Assembly (NCBI GenBank): GCA_018262715.1
Contig: JADFDS010000039.1
Location: 62,001 to 126,000, forward strand
DNA length: 64,000 nucleotides
DNA from: Bacteroidota bacterium
GTDB taxonomy: Bacteria; Bacteroidota; Bacteroidia; Bacteroidales; VadinHA17
Direction: 5' to 3'
Position numbers and translations under genes: made by a program. The notes under the pieces were generated by a model that was not told where the DNA came from, made no database searches, and saw only the letters and a program-made list of their open reading frames with translations. The stretch's first letter is position 1. Each line of letters begins with the position of its first letter. Below are positions 52,972 through 58,053 of this stretch, one piece after another.

Positions 52972-54090
52972 TTAACTCCAGACTCCGGGGATTTTGGTTC
53001 CGCATGCGCATCTGCCACCGGAGAGGGCCTGTGACACTATTCTGAATCCGCTTCTGTCCACTACTTTCTTTCCGCAGGAGGGACAAATGGTGTCATCATT
53101 TCCGGCACCGGGGAGATTCCCTATATAGACATATTTAATTCCGGCAGCCCTTGCTGTCTCTGCCGCCTTTGTCAGTATGCCGGCAGGAGTGGGAGGAAGA
53201 TGCTCCAGCTTGTACTGGGGCTGGAAGCGGCTGAAATGGAGCGGAGTGTCAGTGAATCCTTTCTCAGCCAGCCAGTCGCACATCTGCCTGATCTCATCGG
53301 GTTTGTCAGTCCACCCCGGAACCACGAGGTTGGTAATCTCCAGCCAGACACCCTCATCACGGTAGGTTTTGAGACTGTCAAGAACGGGTTGCAGCCGCGC
53401 ACCTGTGAGTTTCAGATATGTGCTGTCACTGAATGATTTAAGATCTATATTGGCGGCATCAACATAGCGGCAGAGCTGTCTGAGCGGCTCCCGGTTGATA
53501 TAACCGTTGGATACCATTATGTTCTTTATTCCCTTCTCCCTTGCCAGCCTGGATGTTTCGTAGACGTATTCGTAAAAGGTTACGGGCTCGGAATAGGTAT
53601 AGGCAATTGACCTGCATCCTCCGGCAGCAGCCTGTGCCACCACATCCGGGGGCAGCAGGTCAAAATTCCTTGTCTTGTCCGGTGATGTCTGCGAAATGGT
53701 CCAGTTCTGGCAGTTGAGGCATGCCAGGTTGCATCCGGCCGTGGCTATTGAAAAAGCGGTGGTGCCCGGGAGGAAATGGTACAGGGGTTTCTTTTCCACC
53801 GGATCTGTGTTTACGGCGCACGGGTTGCCGAAAGCCATCGTATAAAGTTTTGATTTCCTGGCAATCCGGTTGTGACAGTCGCTCAGTTCCCCATCCTTGA
53901 GAGTGCACTCGTTGGGACAGATCAGGCAAACCACACCCTTCGGGCCAGCCTCCTGGAACATGGCAACCCTCTCAACCGGGGCAGGTCTCATGGCGCCCGC
54001 AGGAAAGGGGGCAAAAAAGCCTGCTGCAAGGGCAAGGGAACCCCTCCTGGCAAAACTCCTCCTGGAAATATTATTGTCGTTGTCCTTCAA
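52972..54090 (-). CDS. amrS: AmmeMemoRadiSam system radical SAM enzyme with Tat-like leader
   Basis: A 372-residue radical SAM enzyme of the AmmeMemoRadiSam group, related to pyruvate-formate-lyase activases. The SAM cluster is Cys120/124/127 (CNLACLNC). Extra cysteines lie upstream (Cys55, 58, 62, 72) and in a C-terminal zinc ribbon (CPSCG, CACG). The N-terminus reads SRRSFARRG then a hydrophobic stretch and AGA, a good twin-arginine signal, which suggests export of a folded iron-sulfur enzyme. The start is a TTG, the only one that keeps the leader. It ends a three-gene operon 31 bp after the membrane protein gene. Confidence 0.88.
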
Positions 54091-54121
54091 TCTGTTATGG
54101 ATTCTGTTGCCTGCTGTAAAT

Positions 54122-56563: not shown

Positions 56564-58053
56564 TTCTGTTCCTGTTCGCCGAAGACATAGGCCTCATAGA
56601 CAAATATCTCCGTGTCCTTCTCTTTCCAGCCGTCCCAGCCGATTCCTGCCTTGTCGCGGGCACAGTACCCGAGGAACTGCTCCACGGTCCAGCCCCTTTC
56701 AGTGGCCACCTGCGGCAACAGGGTTCCTGACCGGAAGCCTTTTTTAATATAGACGCCGTGCCGGCCGATCTTTATTTCGTTGATATTGTTTATTTTCCTC
56801 ATTGGTCCGAGAACCGAAATCTCCAGGTGAACGGAAGGGTATTCAGCTTTCGTCAGCGCAGGGAACCTGGGGTCGCCGAAGGCAGCTTCCGTGGCCATGG
56901 CAGCTACCACTTCCCACAGTGGATCAGTTGAGGTGAACCGTCCGATGCATCCCCTGAGCTCACCCTCTCTGGTCAGTGTCACGAATGCTCCTAACGGTTC
57001 CCTGAGCCCCGGTGTCAGCCTGCCTTCATCCACCGGAACAGGTTTGCGATTGTTCAGTCTCGCTGTAATGGCCTCCCGCGCTGTGCCGAGCAGGATCTTT
57101 TTCTCTGCCGCCGTCAGCGTGAAGGGTTCAGGTGCAGGACTCTTCTTCTCCAGTACAATTGCATTGTAACCCACAACCTCATCCTTCGAGCCAACCCTGG
57201 CATCACCGGAGTTGGTGTATTCCACGTTGCGGAACTGCAGTCCCTCATCCTTTTCAGCCATATAGAGCAGTACCGCCCCTGCGGGCCACCCGCACATGGC
57301 CGTGGCCAGGTTGTCAGTACCCGAAGTCTCTATGTTCCTTATCGTCCGGAGAAAAGCCTCGGCATTACCTTTGACTATGGCATCGCTGGAAAGCCTGTCG
57401 ACACGCTTTGCGTCATCATAGGCCGGATAATGCGAAAAATCACTGCTGATTACAAAAAGGTTGCGGTCATTGAACCACGGCTGAAGTCCTGAGGCTATCG
57501 CCTTAAGTACAGTGGTGTTCCTGGTGCCGATCAGTATCGGAACGATGGCCGGGGGCTTAGTGAAATGATACTGAATGAAGGGCAGTTGCACCTCGAGCGA
57601 ATGCTCAGGACCGTGAGCCACATCTTTTTCGATGAACCACCTGTTGGTTGACCTGAGCTTTTCACCAATCTCCCTGTTGACTTTAAGAGTTCCGAGCGGA
57701 GTAATCAGGTTCCCGGAGCTGAATACCGCGGCACCCTCAAAGGCATAGCGGTGACTGACGCCGATCAGAAAAATGTTGTCATATACAGCTTCCGCAGGTA
57801 TGGCGGCAAAACCTGCCGCAGCAGTGTGCCCTGAATAGACATAGCCGGCATGGGGTACGATTATGGCTCTCACCCTCACTCCGGCATCAGGCTTCCTGAA
57901 TGATGCAAAATACCCTGCAAGTTCACTCCTGAGCCTCTCGCTGCCGGCGGGATAGAAACTCCCTGAGACAACCGGCTGCCTGTCATGTTCCTGTCCGAAT
58001 ATGTTCATTAGCGGAAAAATTAACATTACCAGGATGATACTAACCCTTTTCAT
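56560..58053 (-). CDS. Secreted Memo-AMMECR1 fusion protein (AmmeMemoRadiSam system)
   Basis: A 497-residue fusion with a signal peptide (residues 1-20, ending IFGQ). Residues about 25-305 are a Memo domain, related to class III extradiol dioxygenases: RQPVVSGSFYPAG, VPHAGYVYSGH (His68), IGVSHRYAFEG (His101) and SSDFSHYP. Residues about 313-492 are an AMMECR1 domain with the invariant LRGCIG (366-371). In many genomes these are separate genes next to the radical SAM gene. Signal peptides place the pathway outside the cytoplasm. Human MEMO1 and AMMECR1 are implicated in copper/iron handling and growth, but the bacterial reaction is not established to my knowledge. Confidence 0.9.
   Translation of the reverse strand: MKRVSIILVMLIFPLMNIFGQEHDRQPVVSGSFYPAGSERLRSELAGYFASFRKPDAGVRVRAIIVPHAGYVYSGHTAAAGFAAIPAEAVYDNIFLIGVSHRYAFEGAAVFSSGNLITPLGTLKVNREIGEKLRSTNRWFIEKDVAHGPEHSLEVQLPFIQYHFTKPPAIVPILIGTRNTTVLKAIASGLQPWFNDRNLFVISSDFSHYPAYDDAKRVDRLSSDAIVKGNAEAFLRTIRNIETSGTDNLATAMCGWPAGAVLLYMAEKDEGLQFRNVEYTNSGDARVGSKDEVVGYNAIVLEKKSPAPEPFTLTAAEKKILLGTAREAITARLNNRKPVPVDEGRLTPGLREPLGAFVTLTREGELRGCIGRFTSTDPLWEVVAAMATEAAFGDPRFPALTKAEYPSVHLEISVLGPMRKINNINEIKIGRHGVYIKKGFRSGTLLPQVATERGWTVEQFLGYCARDKAGIGWDGWKEKDTEIFVYEAYVFGEQEQK

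Follow-up and report, generated by a model that had tools for sequence, protein, structure and literature searches.

In both bacteria and archaea, Memo and AMMECR1 occur alongside the radical-SAM enzyme AmrS; humans have the first two as well. In the Bacteroidota genome considered here, the genes of this system, AmmeMemoRadiSam, surround a gene for a large membrane protein and carry apparent export signals, which raises the question of whether the membrane protein (hereafter Mem) genuinely belongs to the system and what it could contribute to a radical-SAM reaction placed in the cell envelope.

Gene content of the locus

The window, i.e., the whole stretch of 64,000 nucleotides that was analysed, corresponds to G000:C39:62001-126000 of a 3.15 Mb genome. 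The initial annotation described three tightly ordered genes, and all three ORFs and their domains were confirmed: on the minus strand and in reading order, they encode a Memo–AMMECR1 fusion of 497 aa (56560..58053), Mem, of 813 aa (54122..56563), and AmrS, of 372 aa and with a TTG start (52972..54090). An ATGA overlap joins the first two genes, a gap of 31 bp separates Mem from AmrS, and the trio is flanked by SiaC before and LigA after. Purifying selection acts on each of the three genes: across 12 comparisons with four relatives, NG86 dN/dS is 0.05-0.22. AmrS also keeps its TTG start, as the frames of five relatives (L006, L007, L008, L010 and L011) open at TTG directly after a stop. The arrangement of the trio is not a product of chance.

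The soluble proteins are assigned above curated thresholds. Pfam places a Memo domain at residues 27-299 of the fusion (57157..57975; 184 bits, cut-off 27), in which loose patterns find PHAG, SH, SDFSH and CG motifs, and an AMMECR1 domain at residues 324-491 (56581..57084; 174.9 bits, cut-off 25), while AmrS matches Radical_SAM (70.5 bits, cut-off 29.5). The NCBIfam models TIGR04336 (221.6 bits, cut-off 26), TIGR04335 (170.5, cut-off 99) and TIGR04337 (339.8, cut-off 220) are likewise exceeded; the A, B and rS proteins of AmmeMemoRadiSam are thus encoded together, with all three parts adjacent. Three features set the locus apart from that system: export leaders on the soluble proteins, fusion of Memo to AMMECR1, and a membrane protein that is part of the set.

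The passages of PMC11081632 that deal with MEMO1 give H49, H81 and C244 as iron ligands and note a resemblance to extradiol dioxygenases. Among the exported Memo proteins, loose patterns for the stretches around these ligands recover the PHAG, SH and CG types in 85/85 and the SDFSH type in 68/85. In AmrS, the cysteines of the radical-SAM CxxxCxxC motif (residues 120-127, 53710..53733) are present in 85/85 exported-type and 34/34 other sequences, and the radical-SAM cysteines taken together with four N-terminal and four C-terminal ones are kept in 84-85 of the 85 exported-type rows and in all 34 others. By sequence, the radical-SAM site of AmrS is intact.

Linkage of Mem to the other two genes

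Whether Mem truly belongs to the system, as the initial annotation proposed, hinges on how often it is linked to the other two genes in related genomes, and this linkage turned out to be frequent. A scan of a species-genome collection yielded 442 Mem relatives, the best 80 of which form the locus set; all 80 are titled as Bacteroidota groups or Ignavibacteriales, and the nearest named relative among the matches listed is a Bacteroidales MAG (87% identity). Within these best 80 of 442, Memo/AMMECR1 lies upstream of Mem in 70/71 loci with at least 1.7 kb of flank, and AmrS lies downstream in 62/63 loci with at least 2.6 kb of flank. The two misses are L142 and L144, the latter carrying Mem without AmrS within 5.9 kb.

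Eight flanking families (ArgS, SiaC, LigA, Ffh, DUF6913, FolD, SecA and DapA) recur in 42-57 of the same best 80 loci of 442. Because this chromosomal block is widely conserved, the linkage was recounted in the 15 loci without any of the eight markers, where Memo/AMMECR1 is still upstream in 12/13 and AmrS downstream in 9/10. Mere synteny as the cause of the linkage is thereby ruled out.

A survey of 60 genomes, including that of the window, found Mem in 40 at E <=0.001, one match being weak (G051, E 2e-7). Leaving aside this weak match and AmrS matches below the family cut-off, an AmrS lies within 3 kb of Mem in 35/39 Mem genomes; in three of the other four the contig of Mem ends there (G009, G011 and G031), and the two genes are truly apart in G041. 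Across 198 genomes of the phylum, five (again with that of the window) have Mem matches below 1e-100, and AmrS lies within 2 kb of Mem in 4/5, the Mem of G156 being 382 bases from a contig start.

The placement of Mem between the other two genes, which the initial annotation emphasized, holds in Bacteroidales loci but not in two distant genomes, G098 (L151: AmrS, Memo–AMMECR1, Mem) and G137 (L152: Memo–AMMECR1, AmrS, Mem), where the order is shuffled yet the trio remains together. A further genome, G027, shows ArgS–SiaC–Memo/AMMECR1 followed by LigA after ~430 bp (L181); no Mem was found in this genome, and AmrS persists at the locus as a C-terminal remnant with three stops, which we interpret as loss of Mem together with AmrS while Memo–AMMECR1 was retained. 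Given the linkage counts, the shuffled orders with the trio kept and this joint loss, the view that Mem belongs to the system and is co-inherited with Memo–AMMECR1 and AmrS is well supported by genome comparison.

Predicted export signals of Memo–AMMECR1 and AmrS

The Memo–AMMECR1 fusion of the window begins with the leader MKRVSIILVMLIFPLMNIFGQ (by eye), a putative Sec signal peptide of about residues 1-21 (57991..58053), whereas the leader of AmrS, of about residues 1-35 (53986..54090), contains SRRSFA (by eye) and is of the twin-arginine type; both extents were judged by eye. The window genome encodes TatC on G000:C42, and its AmrS therefore combines the two features expected of a Tat substrate, a leader of this type and a genomic TatC. 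TatC matches occur in 56/60 genomes and in 38/39 Mem genomes; none was found in G020, which has Mem and is 97% complete.

These leaders follow Mem. A script classed 120 distinct AmrS frames, 86 beside Mem and 34 elsewhere, in a count that omits matches <150 bits and two frames lacking the start motif (L152, whose leader is visible by eye, and the truncated L170). Beside Mem, a Tat-like leader is present in 83/86 frames, 77 by pattern and 6 by eye (L033, L040, L088, L092, L105 and L151); the remainder comprises L125, cut by N, and L046 and L135, which are leaderless second tandem copies. Arg-Arg opens 20 of the 77 pattern-matched leaders, and most of the others have Lys-Arg instead (by eye). 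Away from Mem, a leader occurs in 2/34 frames (L060 from G041 and L061 from G031), and both of these genomes carry Mem on another contig. Similarly, a hydrophobic leader is found in 79/85 distinct Mem-adjacent Memo–AMMECR1 fusions, the other 6 being cut by the locus end, and is missing from 6/6 Memo frames not beside Mem, with nine frames that lack a start motif left out of the count; leader-bearing Memo–AMMECR1 without Mem is found in G027 and G038. The export of Memo–AMMECR1 and AmrS is thus a well-supported prediction. The idea that the set is organized in the cell envelope stands on the same footing, with a Sec leader, a Tat-like leader and a membrane protein, and the leaders are retained across the family at the frequencies just given.

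The exported AmrS usually has a counterpart in the same genome. Another over-cut-off AmrS lies away from Mem in 33/39 Mem genomes (in G041 it is the leader-bearing one), and the median AmrS frame is 384 aa beside Mem vs. 341 aa away from it. Leaderless AmrS adjoins separate Memo or AMMECR1 genes in L055, L057 and L070. The window genome itself has a leaderless AmrS paralogue elsewhere, and a search of this genome found no Memo besides the exported copy. In an AmrS tree of 69 rows, the exported rows group together with four leaderless ones (L059, L157 and the tandem copies), and the leader label requires two changes vs. 23 in shuffles; from this grouping, either one origin with losses or a leaderless stem is possible.

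Architecture and predicted topology of Mem

An AlphaFold model of Mem, built from 29 sequences (pLDDT 86, pTM 0.86), shows three helices in residues 1-98 (56270..56563), six in residues 126-305 (55649..56188) and six in residues 644-812, the last preceded by a linker helix within the same segment (residues 622-812, 54128..54700). The two linker helices, 310-329 and 623-638, are as hydrophobic as the other helices of Mem (mean 2.55 and 2.70) and flank a soluble domain of about residues 340-605 (54749..55546). Spermine_synth was the sole Pfam match of Mem at E <=1 (37.9 bits, cut-off 22.9, at residues 388-506), no MFS family being matched, and the modelled soluble domain resembles spermidine/thermospermine synthases with a Z of 22. 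The modelled bundle matches SV2A, PepTSo and 6zgs (VIA Z 19.8-21.5 over 317-348 residues), with Z 20.4 over 348 residues for PepTSo (4uvm) and Z 21.5 over 317 residues for SV2A (9pc9); it is called MFS-like rather than MFS because its sequence matches no MFS family. The two linker helices between the halves presumably add a resemblance to POT carriers. Unlike MFS or POT transporters, however, Mem holds a whole enzyme-like domain between these helices.

Lysine and arginine alternate along the loops of the bundle, with 1.48-5.42 per inside loop and 0.00-0.69 per outside loop across the 29 sequences. This alternating bias places the spermidine-synthase-like domain outside the membrane, and the domain is therefore predicted to lie on the outer face of the inner membrane. 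The reading is less clear at loop 61-68 of the N-terminal module, which is ambiguous (1.92 K+R with 1.72 acidic residues), and the domain-side stretches by the linker helices are rather positive (K+R 2.28 and 2.62). Four catalytically intact relatives have seven helices before the domain and an inside N-terminus (hydropathy, by eye), which means that these proteins function outside as well or that the topology has been misread in both groups. As the helix count is shared (by eye), an outside position as an invention of the Mem family is ruled out.

The succession of seven helices and a spermidine-synthase fold also recalls the PRK03612-like aminopropyltransferases, the helix count of the relatives being by eye. 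Mem differs from them by an additional His-rich module at its N-terminus, a second membrane half that follows the domain and the absence of the catalytic Asp pair, and its score of 52.9 bits lies far below the equivalog cut-off of 472.

A putative ligand pocket with lost catalytic residues

The pocket residues of Mem were located by aligning it to solved synthases, and their roles (ribose-holding Glu, adenine Asp, catalytic Asp pair and the Asp of GGGD) are those known from spermidine synthases. The residues that would hold the adenosyl group are kept, the Glu in 96/97 rows and the adenine Asp in 95/96. Of the catalytic Asp pair, the first is found in 0/96 rows and the second in 5/96, and no acidic residue occupies the GGGD position in any of 97 rows. 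Beside the pocket runs an EE..HY..Q segment, with E385, H389 and Q394 present in 96-97 of 97 rows.

The initial annotation had envisaged, as one possibility, that the membrane protein supplies a SAM-derived group. Mem indeed has the domain of a spermidine synthase, with Spermine_synth above its Pfam cut-off, and the corresponding fold, which would favor an active aminopropyltransferase using decarboxylated SAM. The catalytic residues are missing, however, and all four NCBIfam spermidine-synthase models remain far below cut-off, the best of them being the one cited above. Because the aspartates of aminopropyl transfer are lost, this activity is ruled out as a function of Mem and the suggestion is not supported; that Mem acts as such an enzyme after all is very improbable indeed.

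Nine unlinked stretches with Mem relatives were also examined, of which L175 gave no match and L178 aligns outside the pocket part only. L171, L176, L177 and L179, of ~515-525 aa, keep GGG[DE]G and D.PDP, while the longer L172, L173 and L174 have lost catalytic or glycine-loop residues. Catalytic loss as a feature special to the AmrS-linked family is thus ruled out by the latter three.

The N-terminal histidine-rich module

The three-helix module at the N-terminus of Mem contains four conserved histidines, H33 (84/88 aligned rows), H75 (85/88), H89 (86/88) and H93 (82/89). Its weak likeness to DUF4405, which we take to be heme-binding, and to small b-type cytochromes lies in these histidines and in matches at E <=5 of 33/58 modules, mostly weak and with a best E of 1.4e-4; the module of the window scores 9.5 bits, below the DUF4405 cut-off of 26.7. 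Predicted alone, the module has a pLDDT of 93.5; Foldseek with this model gave no match at E <=0.001, VIA gave Z <8 throughout, including 6.6 for the cytochrome b of a hydrogenase (4gd3), and a profile search of the module against PDB sequences gave nothing better than E 0.74. The module may plausibly carry a heme.

By match range, nine loci lack the module (L021, L036, L037, L038, L116, L126 and L151-L153), their Mem matches starting at residue 122-134; L116 may represent the same genome as L021. Electron supply by the membrane protein, which the initial annotation had raised, is thus possible in view of the four conserved histidines, yet several members do without the module.

Candidate mechanisms

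Collectively, these features suggest that the AmmeMemoRadiSam system has here an exported paralogue, for which Mem is the dedicated partner in the membrane. AmrS would fold with its clusters in the cytoplasm, be exported by Tat and act beside Memo–AMMECR1. The outer spermidine-synthase-like domain, catalytically dead, would bind an adenosyl compound that Mem moves across the membrane, either SAM outward or 5'-deoxyadenosine or methionine back, and the His-rich module, possibly with a b-type heme, may pass electrons in the lineages that have it. The final substrate could be a lipid, an isoprenoid, a protein or a small molecule. We infer this carrier role because a radical-SAM enzyme at work after export would require SAM and have to dispose of 5'-deoxyadenosine, and because Mem, which combines a transporter-like fold with an adenosyl-type pocket, is retained or lost together with AmrS. 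That Mem carries an adenosyl ligand, SAM or spent product, for exported AmrS is in our view the most likely single mechanism, and it is held tentatively, at clearly less than even chances. The fuller version, in which a periplasmic radical-SAM enzyme is provided with SAM, or relieved of the adenosyl by-product, by an MFS-type carrier that uses a converted spermidine-synthase domain on its outer side to receive SAM, with heme-type electron input in most lineages, is rather unlikely to hold as a whole.

Close to the carrier role in probability, though somewhat more doubtful, is a Mem that exports or flips the substrate or product of the system (e.g., a lipid, isoprenoid or peptide), its pseudoenzyme domain recognizing that molecule or docking AmrS and Memo–AMMECR1. 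The linkage and topology speak for this role as they do for a carrier, and so does the dead catalytic site; the invariant EE..HY..Q segment beside the pocket could bind a ligand other than SAM, and the unlinked L172-L174, with an MFS-like and a spermidine-synthase-like part and altered sites, indicate that such proteins have AmrS-independent roles. An exporter or flippase would nevertheless have no need to keep the adenosyl-holding Glu and Asp, which are nearly invariant. It is unlikely that Mem serves solely as an anchor or electron-input subunit, with the heme of the His module feeding the exported radical-SAM cluster and the rest as scaffold: the conserved histidines (82-86 of 88-89 rows) and the mostly weak DUF4405 matches would fit, but several members retain the MFS-like and spermidine-synthase-like parts without the module, and quinol-level electrons are generally too weak for SAM cleavage.

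The leaders themselves could have been misread, all soluble parts then being cytoplasmic. Most AmrS leaders are Lys-Arg, G020 has no TatC match and, to our knowledge, radical-SAM enzymes have been described from the cytoplasm. Against this, the family retains leaders of two kinds, a Sec leader on Memo and a Tat-like one on AmrS, and these are absent from 32/34 AmrS and 6/6 Memo frames classed as lying away from Mem; exceptions were found in G031 and G041 (AmrS, with Mem elsewhere) and in G027 and G038 (Memo). A cytoplasmic location is thus quite improbable.

Implications for the AmmeMemoRadiSam system

The system is reportedly linked to nucleotide-base and isoprenoid modification. We know of no SAM outside the cytoplasm, and an extracytoplasmic SAM economy would be the first known to us. 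None of the papers searched by exact phrase gave a match for periplasmic SAM or for a radical-SAM enzyme that is exported or periplasmic, and a second search found no title or abstract on an exported or membrane-coupled AmmeMemoRadiSam, a mention in Burroughs et al. (2019) being conceivable; in the passages retrieved that name AmmeMemoRadiSam, the term appears as a gene label only.

An exported version with a co-inherited membrane partner would narrow the search for the reaction of the system, since its substrate should be accessible on the outer side of the inner membrane and Mem could be assayed alone for ligand binding. The reaction of Memo and AMMECR1 would then be sited at the membrane surface. 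If SAM is truly used outside the cytoplasm, a general assumption about SAM enzymes would be broken.

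Genomic neighborhood and variants of the system

The system lies within a conserved chromosomal block, SecA, (DapA), DUF6913, LigA, the system itself, SiaC, ArgS, Ffh and (FolD) (window 46968-61911), each gene of which recurs in 42-57 of the 80 Mem loci taken as the best of 442 Mem relatives; the SiaC phosphoprotein is encoded alone (58117-58575).

The window's own genome carries a second, leaderless AmrS on another contig (L053:8177-9202; G000:C40:48206-49186), which stands solo, since a search of that genome found no second Memo to partner it. At three loci, a leaderless copy directly follows the exported AmrS (L046:321-1346, L135:9622-10653 and L136:9540-10565), placing both forms within one gene cluster. 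A divergent exported AmrS in a distant Mem locus (L151:5071-6315) bears near its N-terminus an inserted CxxCH (CSTCH) resembling the motif of c-type cytochromes, an occurrence that may be due to chance.

Memo–AMMECR1 also occurs without Mem. At L181:2348-4388, a leader-bearing fusion is followed by an AmrS remnant, a sequence pattern indicating that Mem and AmrS were lost and the fusion retained with its predicted leader. Elsewhere, a leaderless fusion converges with a leaderless AmrS (L059:4940-7555), and that genome yielded no match to Mem; the pair is possibly a cytoplasmic relative of the exported form.

Four unlinked Mem relatives (L171, L176, L177 and L179) are, judging from their sequences, catalytically intact membrane spermidine synthases, and their helix count and charges, assessed by eye, suggest that their active site also lies outside the membrane.
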